From: Candidatus Neomarinimicrobiota bacterium
GTDB taxonomy: Bacteria > Fidelibacterota > Marinisomatia > Marinisomatales > S15-B10
Reading direction: 5' to 3'
NCBI GenBank assembly: GCA_030743815.1
Contig: JASLRT010000103.1
Coordinates: 1 to 44,805, forward strand
DNA length: 44,805 bases
In this document: positions 1 to 41,097 of the stretch, one piece after another
Layout: every line of letters begins with the position of its first letter
Position numbering within the stretch: the first letter of the stretch is position 1
Notes under the pieces: generated by a model
The model's input: the letters and a program-made list of their open reading frames with translations, nothing else
Database searches by the model: none
What the model was told of the DNA's origin: nothing
Position numbers and translations under genes: made by a program

Positions 1-42
1 ACGTCTCGCGGTGAGGGTGGCTTCGGCAGCACCGGTTCATGA
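1..42 (+). CDS. dut: dUTPase (dUTP diphosphatase), C-terminal end only
   Basis: Frame 1 is open from the window edge to a TGA at 40-42 and encodes 13 residues that contain RGEGGFGSTG. This is the conserved motif V of trimeric dUTPases, the flexible C-terminal arm that closes over the nucleotide in the neighbouring subunit's active site. dUTPase converts dUTP to dUMP and pyrophosphate, keeping uracil out of DNA. The rest of the gene lies upstream of the window. The stop overlaps the ATG of ahcY (ATGA), so the two are probably translated together. The motif is short but highly specific. Confidence 0.85.
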   Translation, partial: TSRGEGGFGSTGS

Positions 43-1319
43 GCAAAATTAAAGATAAGAAACTGACGCGGGAAGGCCGCCGGGCGCTAGAGTGGGCCAG
101 TGATAATATGCCTATTCTGGCGACGATTCGGGACCGGTTCGAAAAAGAGAAACCGCTGGCGGGAATAGCCGTCGGAGTGGCTATGCACCTGGAGCAGAAA
201 ACAGGTATTTTCCTGAAGACGCTTCAGGCCGGTGGGGCAAAGGTGTGTGCCGCTTCATGTAATCCCCTCACCACAGATGATGCTGTGGCGGCGGCCCTGG
301 CTGAGGAGATGGACGTCTTCGCGTGGTCGGGCCAGACAGATAAGGAATACTACGAATGCCTCGGCTTGGTTCTTGAGTCGGCGCCGATAATCACCATAGA
401 CGACGGTGGCGATCTTAACTTACTGCTCCATTCAGAATATCCTGATAATATGAAAGATATTATTGGCGGCTGTGAAGAGACGACCACAGGTGTTCTCCGG
501 CTGAAGGCCATGAGCGACGCGGGAAAACTTAAGATACCTATTCTGGCAGTAAACAACGCCTATTCCAAGTATCTTTTTGATAACCGTTATGGCACAGGCC
601 AGAGCGTTATCGATGCCATAGTATCAGCCACAAATAAGCTCATTGCGGGAAAGACGGTGGTTGTGGTTGGCTACGGTTGGGTGGGACGCGGCGTTGCTTT
701 ACGTCTGCGGGGAATGGGTGCGCGTGTCATCGTGGTAGAGACAGGTGCCGCTCTGGGCGAAGGTCCATCAGGCTATCACCGGGGCCTGGAAGCCCTCTAC
801 GACGGCAATTGGGTTATGTCAATGAAAGAGGCGGCACCACAGGGAGATATATTCATCACGGCCACTGGAAACAAGCATGTAATCTCTAAACAGCACTTTA
901 GCGCAATGAAAAACAATGCCATCCTTGCTAATGTGGGACATTTCAACCATGAGATCGATGTTGCATCTCTAGAGACAATAAGTAGTGAGAAGTCGGAGGT
1001 GATGCCGAATGTGGTGAAGTATCATCTGGAAAACGGCAACTGGCTGATGCTTCTGGCGGATGGACGGCTGGTCAATCTTGTGAGACCGGCAGGACGGGGT
1101 CATCCTGTTGAAATCATGGACGGGAGTTTTGCCGTCCAGGCCCTCTGTGCGGAATATCTAGCCGAGAAAAGTGAAGATCTAAAACCTGACGTCTACGATG
1201 TCCCTTCATCCATCGATGAAGAGGTCGCCCGCCTTGCTCTGGAGTCCCAGGGAATTTCTCTTCAGAAACCTACGCACCAACAGATTCAATATTCACGTTC
1301 GTGGAGAGAGGGTACTTGA
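39..1319 (+). CDS. ahcY: Adenosylhomocysteinase (S-adenosylhomocysteine hydrolase)
   Basis: The 426-residue product reversibly splits S-adenosylhomocysteine into homocysteine and adenosine using tightly bound NAD, removing the product inhibitor of methyltransferases. Family landmarks are NPLTTDDAVAAAL (about 76-88), DDGGDL (about 121), the EETTTGV substrate loop (about 145), the NAD-binding GYGWVG (211-216), NVGHFNHEID and GHPVEIMDGSFAVQ near the C-terminus. The length of about 420 residues is that of the shorter archaeal/thermophile-type enzymes rather than the roughly 470-residue form. The ATG overlaps the dut stop codon by ATGA, which fixes the start well. Confidence 0.96.
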   Translation: MSKIKDKKLTREGRRALEWASDNMPILATIRDRFEKEKPLAGIAVGVAMHLEQKTGIFLKTLQAGGAKVCAASCNPLTTDDAVAAALAEEMDVFAWSGQTDKEYYECLGLVLESAPIITIDDGGDLNLLLHSEYPDNMKDIIGGCEETTTGVLRLKAMSDAGKLKIPILAVNNAYSKYLFDNRYGTGQSVIDAIVSATNKLIAGKTVVVVGYGWVGRGVALRLRGMGARVIVVETGAALGEGPSGYHRGLEALYDGNWVMSMKEAAPQGDIFITATGNKHVISKQHFSAMKNNAILANVGHFNHEIDVASLETISSEKSEVMPNVVKYHLENGNWLMLLADGRLVNLVRPAGRGHPVEIMDGSFAVQALCAEYLAEKSEDLKPDVYDVPSSIDEEVARLALESQGISLQKPTHQQIQYSRSWREGT

Positions 1320-1362
1320 GGCAGCGGATGCACGCTTATCCCGCGTATCTATTATTACCTTC

Positions 1363-1389
1363 TTAGCACTCTCTAAAGCAGTCTGCTAA
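1363..1389. promoter_or_regulatory. CIRCE-like operator (HrcA site) upstream of groES
   Basis: TTAGCACTC (1363-1371), nine spacer bases, then GTCTGCTAA (1381-1389). The left arm and the 9-base spacing match the CIRCE consensus exactly. The right arm matches 7 of 9 positions of GAGTGCTAA. It lies about 95 bases before groES and just upstream of a candidate -35 box. CIRCE is the binding site of the heat-shock repressor HrcA, so HrcA control of groESL is inferred; hrcA itself is not in the window. Confidence 0.75.
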
Positions 1390-1396
1390 AAAAGTG

Positions 1397-1426
1397 TTGA
1401 CTTCAGCTTTCTCTGTATAGTAAATT
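1397..1426 (+). promoter_or_regulatory. Candidate sigma-70 promoter of groES-groEL
   Basis: TTGACT at 1397-1402 and TAAATT at 1421-1426 are separated by 18 bases. The -35 box matches 5 of 6 consensus positions and the -10 box 4 of 6. TATAGT at 1416-1421 is a better -10 hexamer, but only 13 bases from the -35. Position directly after the CIRCE-like element supports a regulated heat-shock promoter. Confidence 0.45.
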
Positions 1427-1484
1427 CCATGCTGAAATCAGGGGTAAATCAAAACTGATAACAATAGATAGGAGTTAAACGAAA

Positions 1485-1775
1485 ATGGCACTCAAGATTA
1501 AGCCTTTAGCTGACCGTGTAGTTGTTGAGCCCGCCGAGGCGGAAGATGTTTCCTCAGGCGGTATTATTCTACCCGATACAGCGCAAGAAAAGCCCCAGCA
1601 GGGGAAAGTGATGGCTGTTGGTCCCGGTAAGGTTAGTGATGCCGGAAATCTCATCAAACCTTCAGTGAAGACAGGTGATAAAGTTCTATATGGTAAATAC
1701 TCTGGAACTGAAGTTACAGTAGATAGCACTGAATATGTCATCATGAAAGAGAGCGATATCCTCGCAATCTTATAG
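1485..1775 (+). CDS. groES: Co-chaperonin GroES (Cpn10)
   Basis: This 96-residue protein has the normal GroES length. It contains [18 protein letters not shown] at the start, the mobile loop [16 protein letters not shown] (about 22-37) that docks on GroEL, the roof segment, and a C-terminal ESDILAIL. A heptamer of GroES caps the GroEL ring and encloses the substrate. A GGAG sequence precedes the ATG by about 10 bases. It sits 35 bases upstream of groEL behind a CIRCE-like site and promoter, so the pair forms the usual heat-shock operon. Confidence 0.98.
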
Positions 1776-1807
1776 CATAATCATAGTCAATTGAATAAGG
1801 AGATTGA

Positions 1808-3445
<1,638 letters not shown>

Positions 3446-3469
3446 TTCACCCGAATTACTTGTAATCAT

Positions 3470-3503
3470 AAAAGCCCTGTTCTTGTGAACGGGGCTTTTT
3501 TTT
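3470..3503 (+). terminator. Rho-independent terminator after groEL
   Basis: AGCCCTGTTC pairs with GAACGGGGCT (10 pairs, one of them T-G) around a 4-base loop, and an unbroken run of eight T follows. It ends 25-58 bases after the groEL stop and insulates groESL from the fol operon. Confidence 0.93.
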
Positions 3504-3533
3504 ACTCGGATAGCGTCACGGAACTTCTTAACC

Positions 3534-3562
3534 TTGCCTCTCCTTAATGGGACGCATAAATT
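3534..3562 (+). promoter_or_regulatory. Candidate sigma-70 promoter of the folB operon
   Basis: TTGCCT (3534-3539) and TAAATT (3557-3562) lie 17 bases apart between the groEL terminator and folB. The same TAAATT hexamer occurs in the candidate groES promoter. The predicted start would leave a leader of about 20 bases carrying the AGGAG of folB. Confidence 0.45.
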
Positions 3563-3588
3563 AAATAGTAAAAAGTAGGAGATTCTGA

Positions 3589-3960
3589 ATGGGAAAAATT
3601 CGTCTTAAAGATATGCTTTTCTACGGCTACCACGGCGTTGACGAATCAGAACAGAAGCGAGGCGGCACTTTTGAAGTGGATCTGGAAATGCGAAAGAACC
3701 TGTCTGAGGCTGTTACTTCAGATAGTCTTCATTCTACAGTAGATTATGCTGCCGTTTATCAAACTGTTCACAACTGTCTGACAGGTACTAAGTATTATCT
3801 GCTTGAAAGGCTGGCCGGTCACATCGCAAAGACGTTACTGGCAGATTTTGACCTTGACAGCGTTAAGGTTACAGTCAGGAAGAGGCATGCGCCGGTTCGG
3901 GGTGTCATGGGTGATGTAGAAGTTGAGATTGAGAGAAAACCCGAAGATTTCAATACGTAA
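3589..3960 (+). CDS. folB: Dihydroneopterin aldolase
   Basis: The 123-residue product has the family's usual length. It carries the signature LKDMLFYGYHGVDESEQKRGG (6-26), including the tyrosine and glutamate region of the active site, a STVDYAAVY segment (about 53-61) and LLERLAGHIA (about 77) that holds the pterin-binding glutamate. It cleaves 7,8-dihydroneopterin to 6-hydroxymethyl-7,8-dihydropterin and glycolaldehyde in folate synthesis, the step before FolK, which is the next gene and overlaps it. An AGGAG lies 8 bases before the ATG. folP and folE are not in the window. Confidence 0.95.
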   Translation: MGKIRLKDMLFYGYHGVDESEQKRGGTFEVDLEMRKNLSEAVTSDSLHSTVDYAAVYQTVHNCLTGTKYYLLERLAGHIAKTLLADFDLDSVKVTVRKRHAPVRGVMGDVEVEIERKPEDFNT

Positions 3961-4459
3961 GAAAATTTTCCTGAGTTTTGGGTCGAATATCAACGACCGA
4001 TACAGAAACTTACAGGAGGCAATTTCCCGGCTAGACGAGTCGGGTCATCTCGAAATCTGTGCTGTCTCGCCAGTGTATGAGACAGAGCCCCTCTACAACA
4101 CAGATCAGAAGGAATTTCTGAACTGCATGGTAGAGATCACGACTGACGGCTCCCCAGAGAATCTGCTTATGCTGTGCAAGCAGGTTGAGCAAGAAATGGG
4201 GAGGGAACCAGACAGTCAGAAGAATGAACCACGAGTCATTGATATTGATATAGTTTTTTTTGATGACAGGGTGATGCAGACAGAAAACCTAACAATACCA
4301 CACTCGAATTACAGCGAAAGAAAATTTGTTCTAGTGCCGTTATGTGATCTTGCTCCCCAATTTACTTGTCCCCTTTGCGGCGATTCCATCAGCGATATCC
4401 TGGCGCGATGTCCCGATACGTCACTGGTGCATCGCTACAAATTGGTGGAGACAGCTTGA
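3923..4459 (+). CDS. folK: 2-amino-4-hydroxy-6-hydroxymethyldihydropteridine pyrophosphokinase
   Basis: FolK transfers pyrophosphate from ATP to 6-hydroxymethyldihydropterin. The protein shows FLSFGSNINDRYRNLQEAI near the N-terminus, VYETEPLYNTDQKEFLNCMVE (about 52-72), EQEMGREP (about 90) and the metal-binding PRVIDIDIVFFDD (about 104-116), followed by LTIPHS and FVLVPLCDLAP. No ATG is available: the likely starts are TTG at 3923 or TTG at 3929, both inside folB. The gene therefore overlaps folB by about 30-38 bases, which implies translational coupling. The exact start is uncertain; identity is not. Confidence 0.93.
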   Translation: MRLRENPKISIRKKIFLSFGSNINDRYRNLQEAISRLDESGHLEICAVSPVYETEPLYNTDQKEFLNCMVEITTDGSPENLLMLCKQVEQEMGREPDSQKNEPRVIDIDIVFFDDRVMQTENLTIPHSNYSERKFVLVPLCDLAPQFTCPLCGDSISDILARCPDTSLVHRYKLVETA

Positions 4460-5097
4460 GAAACCTCTATTATGTAGCGATTGAAGGTGTTATCGGTGTC
4501 GGTAAGACGAGCCTGGCCGAACTCCTTGCCGATCATCTCAATGCAAGACTCATACTGGAAAAGTTCGAAGAGAACCCATTCCTGCCTGATTTCTATACCG
4601 ACCCTGACCGTCACGCCTTCCAGACACAGCTGTTCTTTCTGCTCAGTCGTTATCGACAGCAACAGGAACTGAGACAGACGGACGTCTTCCACCAACTCTA
4701 TATCACCGACTATATGTTCGTGAAAGATCGACTTTTTGCTTCTCTCAATCTCGATGAAAAGGAGATGTCGCTTTACGATTCAGTGGCAAGTATGCTGGAG
4801 CGGAATGTGCTCAATCCCGACATGGTCATTTATCTCCAGGCAGATACCGACCGCCTGATGCAGAGGATCACTTCACGAGACAGGGATTTCGAGAAAGGAA
4901 TTTCGCGAGATTATATCGACGCCCTTAACCAGGTCTATAATGAATATTTCTTCCGCTATCAGGAATCTCCTCTCCTTATCATCAATACGAATGATATCGA
5001 CTTTGTCCATAACCAGAAAGACCTGAAGGAAGTGATCCGCTATATACGTCAGCCTGTAAGTGGCACGAAGTTCTTCAATCCCGCCGCAAATCTCTGA
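4456..5097 (+). CDS. Deoxynucleoside kinase (dGK/dAK-type), first of two
   Basis: The 213-residue product belongs to the dNK/P-loop kinase family that phosphorylates deoxynucleosides for salvage. It has the P-loop EGVIGVGKTSL, then EENPFLPDFY, the TDYMFVKDRLFA segment containing the DR pair, LYLQADTDRLMQRI, and the arginine-rich lid RDRDFEKGI. The DYxFxKD form resembles Bacillus deoxyguanosine kinase, but substrate preference cannot be read off. The chosen start is TTG 4456, which overlaps the folK stop (TTGA) and has GGAG 5 bases upstream. An in-frame ATG at 4366 lies deep inside folK and would add 30 unrelated residues. A second paralogue is at 30723-31367. Confidence 0.9.
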   Translation: MRNLYYVAIEGVIGVGKTSLAELLADHLNARLILEKFEENPFLPDFYTDPDRHAFQTQLFFLLSRYRQQQELRQTDVFHQLYITDYMFVKDRLFASLNLDEKEMSLYDSVASMLERNVLNPDMVIYLQADTDRLMQRITSRDRDFEKGISRDYIDALNQVYNEYFFRYQESPLLIINTNDIDFVHNQKDLKEVIRYIRQPVSGTKFFNPAANL

Positions 5098-5282
5098 TGT
5101 TTAAGACAATTCTGATTTTCTTAATGGGTTACCTCTTTTACAGAGTAGTAAAAGGTCAACTTACGGTCAAGAAATCCCAATCCAGGTTCGAGAATGGATC
5201 AGAGCGGGAAGAGTCACTGGGAATTTCGGAAGAAGATATTCGGGACGCGAAATTTACTGATATAAACGAAGAGGAGAACTGA
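5097..5282 (+). CDS. Small single-pass membrane protein, function unknown
   Basis: This 61-residue protein has one hydrophobic N-terminal segment (about 2-18, LILF/MGYLFYRVV) and a charged tail ending in IRDAKFTDINEEEN. The ATG overlaps the upstream stop (TGATG) and its own stop overlaps the next start, so it is firmly embedded in the operon and very likely translated. Short proteins with an N-terminal anchor and a D/E-rich C-terminal DAxFxDI pattern recur in FCB-group genomes. I do not recognise a characterised family and assign no function. Confidence 0.72.
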   Translation: MFKTILIFLMGYLFYRVVKGQLTVKKSQSRFENGSEREESLGISEEDIRDAKFTDINEEEN

Positions 5283-5707
5283 TGCTGTCATCTATTGAGG
5301 TTCTGTATAAGAATCGCCTCGATTTCGGCCTGTTGCTTCTCCGCTCAGTATCAGGATACATGATCCTGGTGAATCACGGCTACAGCAAGATAACCGCCGG
5401 TGCCGAGAAATGGGAAAGACTGGGCGGCGCTATGACGAGGCTGGGAATCGATTTTTTTCCAACCTTTTGGGGATTTATGGCGTCCTTCTCGGAATCCTTC
5501 TGTGGGGCGTTCCTCATCCTCGGACTTTTCACTATTCCCGCATCATTTCTCCTCTCCATGACGATGTTCGTGGCCGCGTATGGACATCTGGTTACGGGAA
5601 GAGGGAGCCCTGAAATGGCGCTCATTTACGGGACAGTCTATCTCACCCTTCTTGTGATCGGGCCGGGCAGATTCAGCCTCGACTGGAAGCTATTTAAGCG
5701 AACGTGA
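5282..5707 (+). CDS. DoxX family membrane protein
   Basis: The 141-residue protein has four predicted membrane helices: about 15-35, the segment after GGAMTRLGIDFFPTFWGFMA (55-75), a LFTIPASFLLSMTMFVAAYGH helix, and a C-terminal LTLLVIGPGRFSLDW. The pattern RSVSGYMILVNHGYSKI, a small periplasmic loop with GGAMTRLGI, and the GPGRFSLD ending is typical of DoxX/DoxD-like proteins. These are related to the thiosulfate:quinone oxidoreductase small subunit and to redox-stress membrane complexes. The biochemical role here is unknown. Start and stop overlap neighbours by one to four bases. Confidence 0.87.
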   Translation: MLSSIEVLYKNRLDFGLLLLRSVSGYMILVNHGYSKITAGAEKWERLGGAMTRLGIDFFPTFWGFMASFSESFCGAFLILGLFTIPASFLLSMTMFVAAYGHLVTGRGSPEMALIYGTVYLTLLVIGPGRFSLDWKLFKRT

Positions 5708-6732
5708 TGAAAGCGGTACGGATCCACGAACACGGCGGGCCAGATGTTCTAAGATGGGAAGAGATAGCCGATCCTGAATGTCCGCCCGATAGGGTAATCC
5801 TCAGAATCAAGGCGAGTTCTATTAATCACCTCGATATCTGGGTTCGCAACGGCTTTCCCGGAATTCCGCTGCCTTTCATCCCGGGAAGTGACGGCAGTGG
5901 TGTCGTTCATGAAGTGGGGGCGGAGGTAAAGGATTGGGAGCCGGGAGATGAGGTGATGATTCAGCCGGGAACATACTGCAGTGAATGCAGATTCTGTCGG
6001 AGGGGGAAGGAGAATCACTGTATTACATTCGGTATCATGGGCGAATCTGAGGACGGTACCGATTGCGAGTATATGGTTATCGAGCCGAAGTATCTCGGCC
6101 GCAAACCGGAATCGCTCTCCTTTGAGGAAGCGGCGGCATTTCCACTCGTGTTTCTCACAGCCTACACCATGTTAGTGCGTCGGGCCCGAATAGAAGAGGG
6201 TGAAATCGTTCTGGTGCTGGGCGGAGCTTCGGGCGTCGGCAGTGCGGCGATTCAGATCGCAAAACTTTTCGGATCTACCGTGATTGCCACCGGCGGCAAT
6301 GAAGACAAACTGGCGCTGTCTACAGAATTAGGCGCAGACCACGTCATCAATCATTCAAAGGAAGTGATCCACGAGAGAGTTGGTGAAATCACCGACAGGT
6401 GGGGCGCCGACATTGTGTTCGAACACGTGGGGGAGGCAACATGGAATTCAAGTCTGCGGTCGCTGGCGAAGGGGGGCAGGCTGGTCACATGCGGCGCCAC
6501 TACCGGTCCCAAGGGCGCCGTCGATATGCGCCACCTTTTTTCCAAGCATCAGTCAGTGATGGGATCAACCATGGGCGATGCTGCTGCATTCACAGAGTTA
6601 CTCGCCCTCCTCAAGGAAGGACGACTGAAGCCTGTCCTCGACAAGACGTTCCCTATGTCTGAAATTGGCGAAGCTCACCGCTATCTGGAGAGCCGACAGC
6701 AACTGGGGAAAGTGGTTCTGGTTCCACGTTAG
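5707..6732 (+). CDS. MDR-superfamily NAD(P)-dependent dehydrogenase/quinone oxidoreductase-like protein
   Basis: The 341-residue protein is a medium-chain dehydrogenase. The N-terminal GroES-like domain keeps the four-cysteine structural zinc loop CSECRFCRRGKENHC. The usual catalytic zinc ligands are absent: asparagine stands where the first Cys is expected (SSINHLDIW) and the usual GHE is GSD. The Rossmann domain has GGASGVGSAAIQIAKLFG. It therefore resembles QOR-type reductases that have kept the structural zinc. The ATG at 5707 overlaps the DoxX stop (TGATG); a GTG at 5704 is the only alternative. Substrate unknown. Confidence 0.87.
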   Translation: MKAVRIHEHGGPDVLRWEEIADPECPPDRVILRIKASSINHLDIWVRNGFPGIPLPFIPGSDGSGVVHEVGAEVKDWEPGDEVMIQPGTYCSECRFCRRGKENHCITFGIMGESEDGTDCEYMVIEPKYLGRKPESLSFEEAAAFPLVFLTAYTMLVRRARIEEGEIVLVLGGASGVGSAAIQIAKLFGSTVIATGGNEDKLALSTELGADHVINHSKEVIHERVGEITDRWGADIVFEHVGEATWNSSLRSLAKGGRLVTCGATTGPKGAVDMRHLFSKHQSVMGSTMGDAAAFTELLALLKEGRLKPVLDKTFPMSEIGEAHRYLESRQQLGKVVLVPR

Positions 6733-6788
6733 ACGCCGTTGAATAAATGGAGAATCATCGTGTAATGTCGAACCTCTACGTCTAACAC

Positions 6789-7145
6789 ATGAAAGGTAAA
6801 TACGACCGACACATTTTCGTCTGTATCAACGATCGTCCCGAGGACAGTCCGAAAGAGTGTTGTGCTGCCAAAGGGGGAAAGAACATCCGTTTCGAGTTCG
6901 TCAAGCTCATCAGCCAGCACGGACTGAAAGGGAAAGTCAGGTCGAACAAATCGGGATGTCTTGATGCATGTGAGCTGGGACCCATAGTGGTAGTCTATCC
7001 CGAAGGCTTCTGGTACACTGGGGTGTCGCTGGAGGACGTGCCGGAAATCTTCGAAAAGTCTGTCCTCAAAGGAGAACCGATGGATAGATTGCTGGCGATG
7101 GAAAAGACTTGGCAGGAATTAGAGAGAATCAGGGATGGCAGTTAA
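6789..7145 (+). CDS. Thioredoxin-like [2Fe-2S] ferredoxin
   Basis: This 118-residue protein has cysteines at 12, 24/25, 57 and 61. That spacing matches the thioredoxin-fold 2Fe-2S ferredoxins such as the Aquifex and Azotobacter FeSII type and the NuoE C-terminal domain. The motifs are RHIFVCINDRP at the N-terminus and SGCLDACELGPIVVVYPEGFWY. It probably carries single electrons in the cytosol, partner unknown. It stands 56 bases after the MDR dehydrogenase on the same strand, so co-transcription is possible. The adjacent C24-C25 pair leaves it open which one binds the cluster. Confidence 0.9.
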   Translation: MKGKYDRHIFVCINDRPEDSPKECCAAKGGKNIRFEFVKLISQHGLKGKVRSNKSGCLDACELGPIVVVYPEGFWYTGVSLEDVPEIFEKSVLKGEPMDRLLAMEKTWQELERIRDGS

Positions 7146-7291
7146 CAGCTTCAATATGTGACGAATTCATTAAAGAGTACTCCTATCACAGACACCATCG
7201 ATAACCCAGCCAGCCAGAACAGTAGAGAATAGTGCAAGTAAAGACAGGGAACAAATTCCTCGAGGGCTCGCGATTTCACGAGCGGCGACCT

Positions 7292-8089
7292 TCACTTGAC
7301 GATCCCCAGTTCTTCTAGAACATTCTTTGTGATCTCAAGTCTCGGCTCCAGTATTTCAGTAAAATTTTGCCCTTCAATGTTGAGGGCAAAGAAATATACA
7401 TTATCACTCTTCTCAACATAGCCGACATACCAGCCCAGGGCCGCTCTCTGGTCTCCACCCATATTGCCGCCACCTGTTTTGGCGCTTAGTGTATAATCCT
7501 CTGTCTGTTCCTGAATCAATATGCTCTTAACTAATTTGATTGTTCTCGGAGAGACCTTCAGTTGACCATTATAGAACTTCTTCAAGAACTCTATCTGTTC
7601 CAATGCTGATATTCTAAGGCTGCCGTTTAACCAGAAATTATCGGTGCCGGATGAGATATCTCTGTTTCCATAATCAAAACTTGCCACATAGCTCTTCATC
7701 TTCTCACGGTCAATCTGTTTTGCAATATGGCGATAGACCGGCACTACTGAATACTTGATTGCACTCTTAAGATTATGCTCACCTCCCCATGTTTTCGGCC
7801 ACCAATCTTCTCTTGGATATGCTTGCTCATCCCATCGGACAATTTGATCTGTATCTGAAATGACTCTTGTTTCGAGTGCAATAATTGAATGAGGGATCTT
7901 ATAGGTTGAGAAGGGTGAATAGCGAGTCTTGGCTCTTTCCTCATTAAAGATTGTATAGATGTTAGATTTCTGATCATGAACAACGATTGTGCCCCGGAAG
8001 TTTTTGAAATGCTCATCCAGTTCGTTCTGGGCAGATAAAGCGGAGATCGAAGCCAACAGGACTAAAGATACTACACACATCTTATTCAT
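7292..8089 (-). CDS. Class D (OXA-type) beta-lactamase
   Basis: The 265-residue precursor starts with a Sec signal peptide (about 1-20, ending LSA-Q), so the enzyme is periplasmic. All class D motifs are present in order: S61-T-Y-K64 (nucleophile and the lysine that is carboxylated), S114-V-V, Y140-G-N, FWLNG with W153, and K204-T-G followed by GWYVGY. It should hydrolyse beta-lactams through an acyl-serine; spectrum cannot be predicted. A BlaR1-type sensor is unlikely because no membrane region accompanies the domain. A hand count over 7741-8040 gives about 41% GC against about 56% over 8521-8820 in proC, suggesting separate acquisition. No mobile element borders it. Confidence 0.93.
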   Translation of the reverse strand: MNKMCVVSLVLLASISALSAQNELDEHFKNFRGTIVVHDQKSNIYTIFNEERAKTRYSPFSTYKIPHSIIALETRVISDTDQIVRWDEQAYPREDWWPKTWGGEHNLKSAIKYSVVPVYRHIAKQIDREKMKSYVASFDYGNRDISSGTDNFWLNGSLRISALEQIEFLKKFYNGQLKVSPRTIKLVKSILIQEQTEDYTLSAKTGGGNMGGDQRAALGWYVGYVEKSDNVYFFALNIEGQNFTEILEPRLEITKNVLEELGIVK

Positions 8090-15575: not shown

Positions 15576-16040
15576 ATGTCTGATGAAATCACAATCGTTA
15601 CCACTAACCGCAAGGCTTTCCACGATTTTAAAATCTTGGAAAAGTTTGAAGCAGGTATAGAACTCGTCGGAAGCGAAGTTAAAAGTCTGCGCGAAGGGAG
15701 GGCCAATCTTAAGGATGCCTACGCATCCTTACGTGAAGGTGAAGTGATGCTGGTTGGAATGCACATCGGTCCATATTCCCATACCAGCCATAGCGGACAT
15801 GAACCGTATCGAGATAGAAGACTTCTTCTTCATCGGCAAGAAATCCGAAAACTGAAGCGCAAGGTTTCAGCCAAAGGTCATACAATAGTTCCTTTAAAGG
15901 TATACTTTAATCGGAGCTGGGCAAAAGTAGAAATTGCGTTAGCTACAGGCAAGAGAAGTTATGACAAAAAAGCGGTAATTGCCCGGCGGGATCAAGAGCG
16001 GGCTTTGGAACGGGAACTGAGAAATAAACGTCGAGTGTGA
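15576..16040 (+). CDS. smpB: SsrA-binding protein SmpB
   Basis: The 154-residue product has the usual length. It shows TNRKAFHDFKILEKFEAGIELVG at the N-terminus, GSEVKSLREGRANLKDAYA, the GHEPYRDRRLLLHRQEI segment, and a lysine/arginine-rich tail (KRSYDKKAVIARRDQERALERELRNKRRV). SmpB binds tmRNA and places it in the ribosomal A site to rescue stalled ribosomes; the basic tail enters the empty mRNA channel. The tmRNA gene is not seen in the window. The stop overlaps the start of tyrS (TGATG). Confidence 0.97.
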   Translation: MSDEITIVTTNRKAFHDFKILEKFEAGIELVGSEVKSLREGRANLKDAYASLREGEVMLVGMHIGPYSHTSHSGHEPYRDRRLLLHRQEIRKLKRKVSAKGHTIVPLKVYFNRSWAKVEIALATGKRSYDKKAVIARRDQERALERELRNKRRV

Positions 16041-33622: not shown

Positions 33623-35098
33623 ATGCACGTCCGGAGCATTCTGAATGTACTATCCGCTTTAGTTGCACTCCTTGGGTTCACAATGCTGCTGCCGGCGGTG
33701 TGTTCATTGTTCTACGGTGAATCCGATCTCGAAGGAATTCTGATCTCAGCCGGGATTACACTGGCTGTTACGCTACCGGTCTGGTTTTTCACAAGAGGCG
33801 AAGTACAGCTGGGGATCAAGGACGGTTTTGCCATTGTTACACTGACGTGGACATGTGTAGCAGCTTTTGGCGCTCTGCCATTCATTCTTACGGGTGCCAT
33901 CCCAAATATCACGGACGCATTCTTCGAATCGATGTCCGGTGTAACGACAACAGGTGCCTCCATCATTGGAAACATCGCCACACTCCCTCACCTGTCAAAC
34001 GGAGTTGAAAGTCTGCCACACGGTGTTCTCTTCTGGCGTAGCTTCATCCAGTGGATCGGCGGCATGGGAATCATCGTTTTCAGCATTGCCATCCTGCCTC
34101 TCTTGGGTGTAGGCGGCGTGCAGCTTTTCCGAGCCGAAGTTCCCGGTCCTGTACCTGATAAAATCAAACCCCGGGTGCAAGAAACGGCGAAAATTTTGTG
34201 GCTTGTCTATTGCGGAGTGAGCTTGACAGAGATGATTCTTCTGGCACTCGGGGGCATGTCCATTTTTGACGCCATGTGCCATACATTTACCACCATGGCT
34301 ACGGGAGGTTTTTCAACGAAAAATATTAGCATCGGCTATTTCGACAGTTCTTATATCCATTACGTCATCACTTTCTTCATGTTTCTGGCGGGAGTCAATT
34401 TTACTCTGCACTGGAGAGCGCTCACGGGCAACATCAAAGAAGGCTATTTCAAAGACGGTGAATTCAAGTTTTACGGTGGTCTGATTCTCCTCTTCACACT
34501 ATTTGTAATAATCAATAATGTGATCCAGCACGGTACTGTCGGCCACGCTCTTTTCAGAGATTCACTATTTCAGGTTGTCTCTATCATCACCACGACCGGA
34601 TACGGGACAGCGGACTACACGCTCTGGGGGCCGTTCTCACAGATCGTTTTTCTTCTCCTGATGTTTTTTGGTGGCTGTGCCGGGTCGACTGGAGGAGGGA
34701 TGAAAATGGCTCGCATCATGGTGGTGACTAAGTACAGCCTCTCAGAAGTGAAACGTCTGCTTCATCCACGAGCCGTCATACCCGTCCGGGTGGGGCGGCG
34801 AATGATTGCCGATGAAGTGATCCGTAATACTCTTGGTTTTGTACTGTTTTATGTTTCAATCTTTGTAGGCGTATCGGTGGTGCTCACGGCCATGGGTTTC
34901 GATCTTGTATCTGCCCTTGGGGCTACAGCGGCATCGATTGGCAATGTAGGACCGGGACTCGGATCTGTGGGACCGTCAGCAAACTATGCCCATTTCCCCG
35001 ATCTGGCCAAGTGGCTTCTCTGTTTATGCATGCTTCTCGGGAGGCTGGAAATCTTTACTGTCATTGTCTTATTCAGCCGATCATTCTGGAAACGGTAG
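33623..35098 (+). CDS. trkH: Trk potassium uptake system, membrane subunit TrkH
   Basis: The 491-residue membrane protein contains four pore loops typical of the SKT superfamily: SGVTTTGAS, MATGGFST, ITTTGYGTAD and SIGNVGPGL, each with the selectivity glycine. FGGCAGSTGGGMK is also diagnostic of TrkH. It imports potassium through the inner membrane with TrkA as gating ring and supports osmotic balance. It is co-transcribed with trkA. Confidence 0.96.
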   Translation: MHVRSILNVLSALVALLGFTMLLPAVCSLFYGESDLEGILISAGITLAVTLPVWFFTRGEVQLGIKDGFAIVTLTWTCVAAFGALPFILTGAIPNITDAFFESMSGVTTTGASIIGNIATLPHLSNGVESLPHGVLFWRSFIQWIGGMGIIVFSIAILPLLGVGGVQLFRAEVPGPVPDKIKPRVQETAKILWLVYCGVSLTEMILLALGGMSIFDAMCHTFTTMATGGFSTKNISIGYFDSSYIHYVITFFMFLAGVNFTLHWRALTGNIKEGYFKDGEFKFYGGLILLFTLFVIINNVIQHGTVGHALFRDSLFQVVSIITTTGYGTADYTLWGPFSQIVFLLLMFFGGCAGSTGGGMKMARIMVVTKYSLSEVKRLLHPRAVIPVRVGRRMIADEVIRNTLGFVLFYVSIFVGVSVVLTAMGFDLVSALGATAASIGNVGPGLGSVGPSANYAHFPDLAKWLLCLCMLLGRLEIFTVIVLFSRSFWKR

Positions 35099-35108
35099 AG
35101 GCGCTAAA

Positions 35109-35648
35109 ATGTCAACGGTACTGAAAGAAGCCAAAGAGAGATGTGGCGTCATTACCGTCAACAGGCCCGAGGTCCTCAATGCCGTGAATCAGAAAACAAT
35201 GGAAGAATTGAAAGACGCGTTTATGGACTTCCGCCGTGACAGCGGAGTGGGTGTTATTATTCTCACTGGCGCAGGTGAAAAGTCTTTCATAGCGGGGGCG
35301 GATATTACTGAGATGTCATCGGCCAGCGCTACGGAAGCCGTCGAACTCATCACCGGTGGTGAAATGATTTCGACACAGGAAGCGGAGGAGATGGGACTTG
35401 TGAACCACGTGGTGCCGCCGGAGGATTTGATGCCTAAGGCGATGGAGATAGCCAATTCCATTCTGAGCCGCGGCCCGGAAGCGGTGAGACTCTCCCTTGA
35501 AGCAATTCAGCACGGAATGGAAATGACCCTGGCCGAAAGACTGGATTACGAAGCCAACCTCTTAGGTATTGTTTTCAGTACGGAGGACAAAGATGAGGGG
35601 ACTACGGCCTTCATGGAGAAGAGAAAGCCGAAGTTTCAAGGCAAGTAG
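35109..35648 (+). CDS. Enoyl-CoA hydratase/crotonase homologue with internal in-frame deletion
   Basis: The 179-residue product is clearly crotonase-like: GVITVNRPEVLNAVNQKTMEEL, FIAGADITEM (first oxyanion-loop, 60-69), then EMISTQEAEEMGLVNHVVPPEDL and a C-terminal STEDKDEGTTAFMEKRKPKF. Family members are about 260 residues. About 80 residues are missing between residues 75 and 82 (35331-35354). That removes the second oxyanion-hole strand (NGxALGGGxELxLxCD) and the catalytic glutamates. The reading frame is intact, so it may be a recent deletion or an assembly artefact. As written it should not hydrate enoyl-CoA. It follows trkH by 10 bases and precedes an aldehyde dehydrogenase by 12. Confidence 0.85.
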   Translation: MSTVLKEAKERCGVITVNRPEVLNAVNQKTMEELKDAFMDFRRDSGVGVIILTGAGEKSFIAGADITEMSSASATEAVELITGGEMISTQEAEEMGLVNHVVPPEDLMPKAMEIANSILSRGPEAVRLSLEAIQHGMEMTLAERLDYEANLLGIVFSTEDKDEGTTAFMEKRKPKFQGK

Positions 35649-35660
35649 GAGAATCTTACT

Positions 35661-37214
35661 ATGAATGAGAGCGAAACAATTTCTTCTTCAGAACGAGCTT
35701 CAGTCTATTCGCAGACTGCTGAAACCAGTGTCTTCGAGAACGGTCTCTTGCGCTGTATTAATCCGGCTACTATGGAGACCATCACGAAATTGAATATTTC
35801 CACAGAAAAAGAAATCAGGGAGAAAATTGACAGCCTGAAAGAGGCTCAACAGGAGTGGAGTGCCCTATCATCAAAAGATCGTGCTAAAGTTCTCAAGAAA
35901 ATGAGGAAACATCTGGTGGAACGGATGGACGAGGTGATGGAGGTGATTCTAAAGGAGACAGGTAAAACGGACTTTGACGGCATTATTGAGATACTGACCA
36001 CCGTCGAAATCATGCGCTTTGTTTCATCTGCCGGTCCCCGGACACTTGCTTCAGAGAAGCGTTCCATGGGAATCGTCATGAAGACAAAGCGCGGCTCGGT
36101 TCAGTATCTTCCCTTCGGTATCGTAGGGATCATATCACCGTGGAACTATCCGTTGATTCTGTCGGCAAGTCCTGTGGTTCAGGCGTTGATGGGAGGCAAT
36201 GGTGTGTTGTTGAAGCCGTCCGAATACACGCCCCTCACTGCTCTGAAGATGAAGGAAGTTTTTGACGAAGGCGGATTGCCTGCCGGTCTGTTACAGGTGG
36301 TGATCGGCGGTGGTGATCTGGGCGAGGCGATTGTTGCATCTCCTGACACGGATCTGATTTGTTTCATCGGCAGTGTTAAGGTTGGCAAGCTGATAGGTGT
36401 TGCCTGCGCAGAACAGATGAAACCTGTTATTCTGGAACTAGGCGGAAAGGATCCTCTGATTGTGCTTGCCGATGCCAATATTGAGCGTGCGGCACGTGCC
36501 GCCGTCTGGGGCGGCTTTCACAATGCTGGACAGACTTGTATTTCCGTGGAACGCGTGTATGTGGAAGAGGCCGTGGCTGATCAATTCATTGAAAGAGTAT
36601 CACAGCTTGCGATAGAAACGCAAATGGGGTCTCAGCAGTCGACATGCGATCTCGGGAGTATGACGACCAATCCTCAGGCGGCGAAGGTTTTAGCACAGAT
36701 CGCCGATGCCAGAAAACGCGGCGCAAATATTATGGTTGGTGGCCAAGAACTTCCAAACCGTGAAGGCCACTTCATTCAGCCTACTGTCGTAGTAGATGTG
36801 GATGAGACGATGGAGTTGATGAATCGCGAGACATTCGGGCCGGTAATAGCCATATCGAAGGTCAAGGACGCAGACGAGGCGGTAGACAGGTCGAATTCAC
36901 TGAGTTACGGTTTGAATGCATCCATCTTCACACAGGATTTGAAGAAGGCGCGGGAGCTGTCGAAACGCATTCAAGCCGGAAACATTTGCATTAATGATGT
37001 GGAATCCAACTATCTCTGCGTCAGTCTACCTTTTGGTGGGACTGGTTCCAGCGGGTACGGACGTCTGCAAGGTGTGGAAGGCATCAAGGCTTTTGCTCAG
37101 GTGCAAGCCGTTTGCGAAGACCGTTTTGGGCTGAAGAGGGAGCTGTGGTGGTTTCCTGTTTCCGACGGCGTGAAGAAGCTGTTCCGGGCGCTAATCAAGA
37201 TCTTGTACGGATAG
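35661..37214 (+). CDS. NAD(P)-dependent aldehyde dehydrogenase
   Basis: The 517-residue enzyme has all catalytic residues: N162 (SPWNYPL), E259 (LELGGKDP) and C293 (GQTCIS), with NRETFGPV and the C-terminal LPFGGTGSSGYGRLQG. It oxidises an aldehyde to an acid. The sequence resembles succinate-semialdehyde/broad-substrate dehydrogenases, but substrate is not assigned. About 35 extra N-terminal residues and a hydrophobic, aromatic C-terminal tail (ELWWFPVSDGVKKLF) suggest membrane association. TAGGAG precedes the ATG. Confidence 0.92.
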   Translation: MNESETISSSERASVYSQTAETSVFENGLLRCINPATMETITKLNISTEKEIREKIDSLKEAQQEWSALSSKDRAKVLKKMRKHLVERMDEVMEVILKETGKTDFDGIIEILTTVEIMRFVSSAGPRTLASEKRSMGIVMKTKRGSVQYLPFGIVGIISPWNYPLILSASPVVQALMGGNGVLLKPSEYTPLTALKMKEVFDEGGLPAGLLQVVIGGGDLGEAIVASPDTDLICFIGSVKVGKLIGVACAEQMKPVILELGGKDPLIVLADANIERAARAAVWGGFHNAGQTCISVERVYVEEAVADQFIERVSQLAIETQMGSQQSTCDLGSMTTNPQAAKVLAQIADARKRGANIMVGGQELPNREGHFIQPTVVVDVDETMELMNRETFGPVIAISKVKDADEAVDRSNSLSYGLNASIFTQDLKKARELSKRIQAGNICINDVESNYLCVSLPFGGTGSSGYGRLQGVEGIKAFAQVQAVCEDRFGLKRELWWFPVSDGVKKLFRALIKILYG

Positions 37215-38634: not shown

Positions 38635-39666
38635 GTGAATAAATATGCAATTCTTGTAGAAGGCGAGTTCAACTATCTATATGCCAAGACAGCCAATGCC
38701 ATCCTCCGTTACTGTCCGGAAGAGGTGGTCTGCATTATCGATTCAACCAACGTCGGCAAGACATCGAAAGATGTAATCGGATATGGCGGCGATCTTCCCA
38801 TTGTGGCCAGTGTGGATGATGCCCTCGCCTACGAACCACGCAAACTGTTGATCGGAATAGCTAATCCCGGCGGTATTCTTCCCGATTCATGGCGACAATC
38901 TATCGTCACAGCTATCGAGAGTGAGCTCGAAGTCATCTGCGGGCTTCACTTTTTTCTCAACGATGATCCGGAATTCTCGCGCCTGGCGAAAAAGCATGGA
39001 GTGAAGCTCACCGATCTGCGCCGCCCGCCTTCGCCGCTACCTTTTTCTAAGGGGACATGGCAGACCCGCAAGACGCCTGTCCTCCTGACGGTGGGGACCG
39101 ACTGCGATACCGGAAAGATGACAGCGGCATGGGAGCTGAAGAATCTGCTGGAGGAGAAGGGTAAGACGGCGGCATTCGTTGGCACAGGACAGACAGGAAT
39201 TCTGTTGGGAGGGTACGGAGCGGCAGTGGATGCGGTAGTAAGTGATTTTGTAGCTGGTACTATCGAAGCTGAGATTGATAAGGTCGGCGAAGATTACGAC
39301 TTGATTATCGTAGAGGGGCAAGGGAGCATCACTCATATGGCTTACTCAGGGGTAACTCTCGGTCTCCTGCACGGGACAATGCCAGATTTTATGCTTATGG
39401 GTCATGAAGAGGAGCGGGAGATGGATACTTTCGACTACCCTATGATAGACTTTGATACAATCATGGATCTTTATCTCAGACTGGTGAGGGTGTTCAAACC
39501 GTGCGAAGTGGTGGGGATCGGTCTGCTGACACATCTCCTTAATGAAGAGAAGGCGAAGGCAGCCGTCAGGAAGTATGAAAAGAGATACGGCATCCCGACT
39601 ACCGATTTTATTCGTTTTGGTTCCAGGGATGTTTTGAATAATATCCTGTCCAAGTTGAGGGATTAA
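38635..39666 (+). CDS. DUF1611 (DgcN-like) P-loop protein, possible D-glutamate N-acetyltransferase
   Basis: The 343-residue protein has the two DUF1611 domains: an N-terminal Rossmann-like part (LIGIANPGGILPDSWRQ) and a P-loop part with VGTDCDTGKMTAA (153-165), FVGTGQTGILLGGYG and DLIIVEGQGSITHMAYSGVTLGLLHG. DUF1611 includes DgcN, described as a D-glutamate N-acetyltransferase that works with the enolase-superfamily protein DgcA. The next gene here is enolase-superfamily. Function is inferred from family and neighbour. GTG start with AGGAG 7 bases upstream. Confidence 0.85.
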   Translation: MNKYAILVEGEFNYLYAKTANAILRYCPEEVVCIIDSTNVGKTSKDVIGYGGDLPIVASVDDALAYEPRKLLIGIANPGGILPDSWRQSIVTAIESELEVICGLHFFLNDDPEFSRLAKKHGVKLTDLRRPPSPLPFSKGTWQTRKTPVLLTVGTDCDTGKMTAAWELKNLLEEKGKTAAFVGTGQTGILLGGYGAAVDAVVSDFVAGTIEAEIDKVGEDYDLIIVEGQGSITHMAYSGVTLGLLHGTMPDFMLMGHEEEREMDTFDYPMIDFDTIMDLYLRLVRVFKPCEVVGIGLLTHLLNEEKAKAAVRKYEKRYGIPTTDFIRFGSRDVLNNILSKLRD

Positions 39667-39682
39667 CCTGACCGGGTTGACA

Positions 39683-40696
39683 ATGGAATTCCATTACTCT
39701 ACTTACCGGCTCGAACTGAAACACACGTTTACCATCGCCCGCGGTTCGGAGGATGCGGCTGATATAGTGCTGGTCTATTTCACAAAGGATGGAATTACAG
39801 GTGTGGGCGAGGCAGCGCCGTCAGATCGCTATGATGAAGACTGCTTCTCCATCGTGAAGCGGATCAACAGGCTCACTTTCGATGATATCCCCGACGGTGG
39901 GACACTCGATGAATGGCTTGATGCCGCTCTGCCCAAGGCCGGCGGTATGCGCTCTCTGGAGACTGCTTTCGATCTCGCTCTTCATGATCTCTATGGCAAG
40001 CTGAACGATATCTCCTTGTCAGATTATTTTGGTGCCAATTCGAAGAAGGGATGTATGACCTCCTTTACTATCGGTATTGATGAGAAAGATAAGATCCGCG
40101 CCAAGGTGCTAGAAGCTGAGCAATATCCGCTTCTCAAAATTAAATTGGGAAGTGACTACGACAGAGAGATCATCAACACCATTCGGGATGTGACCGATAA
40201 GCCCGTCCGGGTGGATGCCAATGAGGGGTGGAACCTGGAGCAAGGCAAGAAAATGTGTGATTGGCTGGCGCAGCGAAACGTAGAATTTGTAGAGCAGCCG
40301 CTACCAGCGGACGATCTTGACGATACGGCCAGGCTGCGGGAAGTGTCACCACTGGAGCTGATAGCGGACGAGAATTGTATCGACTCAAAAAATATCCCCG
40401 ACATCGCCTACGCTTTTGACGGTATTAATATTAAACTGATGAAATGTGGCGGGTTGCGGGAAGCCCATAGAATGATCCAGATGGCGAAGGAGCACGAGTT
40501 GAAAATTATGCTGGGATGCATGGTGGAGACGTCTGTAGCAATCACCGCCGCCGCCCATCTTTCGCCTCTGGTGGACTATGCCGATCTGGATGGCAATATT
40601 CTTACCAGCAATGATCCATTCGACGGCGTTAAAGTAGAGGACGGTATGCTTATTCTTCCTGACGGTCCTGGATTAGGAGTGGAATTGCATCGATGA
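39683..40696 (+). CDS. Enolase-superfamily epimerase (dipeptide epimerase or DgcA-like)
   Basis: The 337-residue protein is a muconate-lactonizing-type member with K152-x-K154, metal ligands D178, E204 and D229, and the opposite-face K251. LGCMVETS and ADLDGNILTSNDPF at the C-terminus are typical of L-Ala-D/L-Glu epimerases. Such enzymes epimerise dipeptides from murein. The closely related DgcA acts as an N-acetyl-D-glutamate racemase next to DgcN, and adjacency to a DUF1611 gene favours a D-glutamate role. ATG 39683 is used; TTG 39677 is the alternative. It overlaps the next gene by ATGA. Confidence 0.87.
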   Translation: MEFHYSTYRLELKHTFTIARGSEDAADIVLVYFTKDGITGVGEAAPSDRYDEDCFSIVKRINRLTFDDIPDGGTLDEWLDAALPKAGGMRSLETAFDLALHDLYGKLNDISLSDYFGANSKKGCMTSFTIGIDEKDKIRAKVLEAEQYPLLKIKLGSDYDREIINTIRDVTDKPVRVDANEGWNLEQGKKMCDWLAQRNVEFVEQPLPADDLDDTARLREVSPLELIADENCIDSKNIPDIAYAFDGINIKLMKCGGLREAHRMIQMAKEHELKIMLGCMVETSVAITAAAHLSPLVDYADLDGNILTSNDPFDGVKVEDGMLILPDGPGLGVELHR

Positions 40697-41097
40697 GAGT
40701 TCTCGGTATCGAACATATCGCCATCGCAACAGATGACCTCGACCGGGATGCGCCGTTCTGGTGCCATGTTCTGAATATCCCGCATCGCACTACGGAAGGT
40801 GTATCGGCTGAAGGGGTGATCACTGATATCTACGATACGGGACGAGGCAAGGTTGAACTACTATCGGAACTTGGGGAAGACTCACCCATCCGAAAGTTCC
40901 TGGAGAAGCGGGGAAGAGGGATTCATCACCTCTGTCTTGAAGTTGAGAAACTGGACGAGGCAGTTGCTGAGCTGAAGGCCAACGGCATCCGTCTTGTTTC
41001 TGATGAGCCGAGCATCGGAGCCGAAGGCTATAGAATCATCTTTGTGCATCCTGAGAGCGCCGGCGGGGTGCTGGTAGAACTGGCTGAAAAGCCGTAG
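40693..41097 (+). CDS. mce: Methylmalonyl-CoA epimerase
   Basis: The 134-residue vicinal-oxygen-chelate protein has GIEHIAIATDDLDRDAPFW, SELGEDSPIRKFLEKRGRGIHHLCLEV and a C-terminal FVHPESAGGVLVELAE. These patterns supply the His and Glu metal ligands of methylmalonyl-CoA epimerase, which interconverts the (R) and (S) forms in propionate metabolism. A broader glyoxalase-family role is possible. methylmalonyl-CoA mutase is not in the window. It overlaps the upstream epimerase gene by 4 bases. Confidence 0.88.
   Translation: MRVLGIEHIAIATDDLDRDAPFWCHVLNIPHRTTEGVSAEGVITDIYDTGRGKVELLSELGEDSPIRKFLEKRGRGIHHLCLEVEKLDEAVAELKANGIRLVSDEPSIGAEGYRIIFVHPESAGGVLVELAEKP

Follow-up and report, generated by a model that had tools for sequence, protein, structure and literature searches.

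The trkH-ALDH interval

The window is a stretch of 44,805 nucleotides (positions 1-44,805 of contig JASLRT010000103.1) from the assembly GCA_030743815.1 of a Candidatus Neomarinimicrobiota bacterium, hereafter G000. Between trkH and an aldehyde dehydrogenase (ALDH) gene it carries a crotonase gene with an internal in-frame deletion (Table 1). The original prediction had called such a deletion at this locus; the open reading frame lies precisely there, and its product matches Pfam and PDB crotonases in two pieces. With no stop upstream until within the 3' end of trkH, the crotonase frame forms an ORF of 220 codons (34986-35648), although the natural start is probably 35109. Elsewhere in the window (38635-41097), DgcN-like and DgcA-like genes are followed by a glyoxalase-family gene; the first two match N-acetyltransferase and N-acetyl-D-Glu racemase models, below the NCBIfam cut-offs. 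A literature search by titles found none on this crotonase gene.

Table 1. Features of the crotonase locus (coordinates refer to the window)
Feature	Position	Strand	Remarks
trkH, upstream neighbour, fixing the orthologous slot	33623..35098	+	gene order
Crotonase (enoyl-CoA hydratase family) gene with internal in-frame deletion	35109..35648	+	179 codons plus stop
Retained N-terminal 75 codons, including the first oxyanion-hole motif AGADI	35109..35333	+	alignment to orthologues
Deletion junction; 79 codons (237 bp) absent relative to G002 and G005	35333..35334	+	position uncertain by a few bases
Retained C-terminal 104 codons and stop	35334..35648	+	alignment to orthologues
Aldehyde dehydrogenase (ALDH), downstream neighbour	35661..37214	+	start 12 bases past the crotonase stop

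The missing segment

The window protein scores 136.5 bits with the PF00378 (ECH_1) profile, whose cut-off is 27, in two separate stretches. Both this profile and the crotonases of the PDB align to two parts of the protein, approximately residues 3-79 and 74-179, and about 80 profile positions between these parts have no counterpart; in the best PDB match (5z7r), window residues 3-79 and 77-174 correspond to chain positions 5-81 and 158-255. Comparison with the 258-codon orthologues that occupy the slot after trkH in G002 and G005 shows that 79 codons are gone after residue 75, which bears out the predicted loss of about 80 residues at this point. The invariant residues that fall in the lost part include L107, G108, G109, G110, E112, G129, E132, G136 and G140 (G002 numbering). 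Two of these, E112 and E132, are conserved without exception across all 31 aligned rows and lie 20 residues apart, as do the catalytic glutamates of the rat enzyme, Glu144 and Glu164. Hence, as had been claimed for the second oxyanion strand and the catalytic glutamates, alignment to the orthologues leaves the window protein devoid of the second oxyanion-hole glycines and of both catalytic-glutamate positions, and because of these losses the 179-residue product is predicted to be very unlikely to possess hydratase activity. An AlphaFold2 model of the window protein has a mean pLDDT of 71.3, with residues 59-84 below 50, although such models are weak for deletion variants; the intact G002 protein, modeled as a control with the same relatives as input, reaches 95.2. 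The result agrees with a broken core but would, by itself, be weak evidence.

The slot in related genomes

We surveyed 10 genomes of the family and 130 of the order. As befits a pseudogene, intact orthologues are found in the slot of relatives: in G002 and G003 the crotonase directly follows trkH with ALDH next, and in G005 it directly follows trkH on a contig that ends soon after the gene, so that the ALDH side is unseen. No orthologous ALDH was seen in G004 and G007, which therefore offer no comparable slot. Judged by gene order, the window gene is a positional orthologue rather than a paralogue.

In G001, the sole other surveyed genome of the window genus and an N-gapped draft that is 75% complete, the slot crotonase keeps its middle but is broken by two single-base indels, a loss near codon 32 and a gain in the middle. 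Both sites are free of N, and the gene has stops inside it. All 11 other shared genes found on this contig are in a single frame. In G008 and G009 the slot is devoid of a crotonase, with trkH and ALDH separated by 76 and 79 bases, respectively. An identical 8-codon reading frame, MTNEKSNL, lies at the crotonase's place in both of these gaps (L174 and L175). It contains a 12-base near match with p = 0.008 against the tail only of the best-fitting relative and p = 0.09 against its whole gene; this frame may be a scar of the crotonase, a weak match that is suggestive at most.

The close spacing of the crotonase stop and the ALDH start raises the question of whether an in-frame lesion was favored by avoiding polar effects on ALDH. 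The in-frame nature of the window deletion and the possible 8-codon remnant in G008 and G009 would fit such a scenario; however, the G001 gene has stops inside it, chance alone yields an in-frame deletion one time in three, and the remnant match is weak on the above values. We consider this account very improbable.

Assembly fault versus genuine lesion

One alternative is that the genome contains a full-length gene, two pieces of which were wrongly joined by the assembler. G000 is a draft of 123 contigs, and the look of such faults is illustrated by a contig of another family member, G006 (L037, contig C21, positions 1-7455), which holds no N. Within its 7.4 kb, 4 neighboring genes have either changed frame or lost between 11 and 25 residues, the hallmark of gaps closed wrongly in that assembly. 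One of these genes is the slot crotonase, from which 25 codons (75 bp) are absent in frame; as the three other genes on the contig likewise lack pieces or change frame, it was rejected as a second natural deletion and plays no part in the argument. For the same reason, a Fisher test of broken versus intact genes inside and outside the family (p = 0.0003), which counts G006 as broken, is not reliable.

We scanned G000 for comparable faults with ORFs from relatives that are at least 120 residues long, retaining alignments of 45% identity or more, which covered 105,905 of 179,363 bases in nine stretches, the window included. The crotonase was the only gene of G000 split around a missing piece, and no loss of 8 or more residues within a single alignment was found in the covered bases. 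That no other gene in these aligned bases lacks a comparable piece argues against an assembly fault. Further, the missing segment was not recovered from the rest of the G000 assembly by a protein search or by a DNA search, the latter run with no positive control; the surroundings of the junction show no sequence of at least 13 bases that is repeated in the window; and the gene is also broken in G001 of the same genus. Taking these findings together, we regard misassembly as unlikely.

The same scan returned four further split rows with G001 as the query and, with G002, one split row and one with 17 extra residues. The split rows include frame changes with no missing stretch in L216 (near 10985) and in L217 (near 15700-15790, a non-coding-looking region); the remaining ones are an antisense frame and a tandem-paralogue match. 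In G002, what looked like an insertion in a downstream gene proved to be an N gap. Of thirteen places checked in G001, 10 hold N, in one case only 2; the three without N are both crotonase sites and a site in the stretch that looks non-coding. Thus, the G001 frameshifts are specific to the crotonase among the genes seen. One further G001 row, with 11 extra residues, lay beyond these 13 places. Thus, a scan of neighboring genes separates an assembly artefact (G006) from a probable real lesion (G000 and G001).

Short forms and repeats

Outside the family, once distant paralogues and multifunctional fusion proteins were excluded, we counted 73 matches in the order at an identity of 45% or more. 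Of these, 66 are full length, and the 7 partial ones all lie at or nearly at a contig end. Matches with a "stop inside" in G037, G040 and G124 turned out to be natural gene ends. Among the 80 loci compared, three apparent natural short orthologues (L078, L084 and L096, with spans of 514 to 574 bp) each consist of the end of one crotonase and the start of the next. A family of naturally short orthologues with the same junction, which the original prediction had allowed for, did not turn up: among the matches listed from 100 other genomes, no row is continuous across the junction.

These observations bear on the proposal that the shortened protein was kept for another role, e.g., as a noncatalytic subunit or a regulator. 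Its open frame, its conserved ends and the low dN/dS between G000 and G001 (see below) would be in keeping with retention. Against this, none of the listed matches shares the junction, the apparent short relatives are mis-joined tandem crotonases, the G001 orthologue is frameshifted, and the predicted model is poor at the junction; we therefore consider retention very improbable. Even as a single broader proposition, namely, that a non-enzymatic short crotonase was kept or that the in-frame form was selected for the sake of ALDH translation while the hydratase was discarded, the chance is but a shade better and still very small.

The deletion had also been ascribed to recombination between short direct repeats at the breakpoints. 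In none of the five relatives that keep the segment does an exact 8-mer recur at a distance of 237 bp. That mechanism hence lacks direct backing, and one may infer a few bases of microhomology at best.

Divergence, timing and a model of gene loss

The codons compared between G000 and G001 number 172 in the crotonase, of which 48 differ synonymously and 34 nonsynonymously; the corresponding figures are 172 and 39 among 491 codons of trkH and 151 and 63 among 517 codons of ALDH. The nonsynonymous share is higher in the crotonase than in trkH (Fisher test, p = 8e-5) and does not differ significantly from that in ALDH (p = 0.054). The dN/dS values on the shared tip are 0.124 for the crotonase, 0.054 for trkH and 0.101 for ALDH; the deep and outer branches are saturated, and as a consequence no single branch can be blamed for the dN/dS. 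Thus, most of the crotonase divergence appears to have built up under constraint, including that of G001, whose gene is plainly broken. As the constraint spans most of the divergence and the G001 gene is nevertheless broken, the lesions of both G000 and G001 would most simply be recent.

Of the three origins initially offered, a lineage-specific deletion is best supported; assembly collapse is unlikely, and a non-catalytic paralogue is left unsupported by the positional orthology. We propose that this is probably an ordinary loss-of-function deletion in a gene that is being lost from the family. Several points count against this proposal: the frame is open across the junction with no further stop accumulated, the nonsynonymous share is not significantly different from that of ALDH, G001 is an incomplete draft, and the dN/dS of 0.124 is as low as in a conserved gene. 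The last of these fits loss if both lesions are recent, although it is no proof of decay.

In the proposed course of events, a 237-bp in-frame deletion would have removed the catalytic core of a crotonase resembling short-chain enoyl-CoA hydratase. Slippage, or an illegitimate joining that needed scarcely any homology or none, is the probable mechanism. The deletion is likely to postdate the divergence from G001 and to be so recent that both ends still look conserved. The crotonase would be dispensable in this family and in the course of being lost by different routes: the deletion in G000, two frameshifts in G001 and the empty slot in G008 and G009. G000 keeps genes for thiolase and acyl-CoA dehydrogenase, as well as further crotonases on contig C55 that might include a backup for the lost enzyme; one of these crotonases is closest to cyclohexa-1,5-dienecarbonyl-CoA hydratase, below the cut-off of that model. 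For annotation, G000 should not be credited with an enoyl-CoA hydratase on the strength of the window gene. The trkH-ALDH slot offers a small example of one gene lost by several routes within a family.

Comparison with known systems

Like short-chain enoyl-CoA hydratases (crotonase superfamily, PF00378), the window protein aligns over the full length of both of its ends and keeps AGADI; it differs from them in the absence of the 79 codons that hold both catalytic-glutamate positions and the glycines of the second oxyanion strand. Bacteria also carry pseudogenes that arose through internal deletions. In contrast to these, the window gene still has an open frame, with no added stops and no clear relaxed selection yet, but it resembles them in having intact positional orthologues, in the disappearance of its essential residues and in the presence of independent lesions in a sister species.
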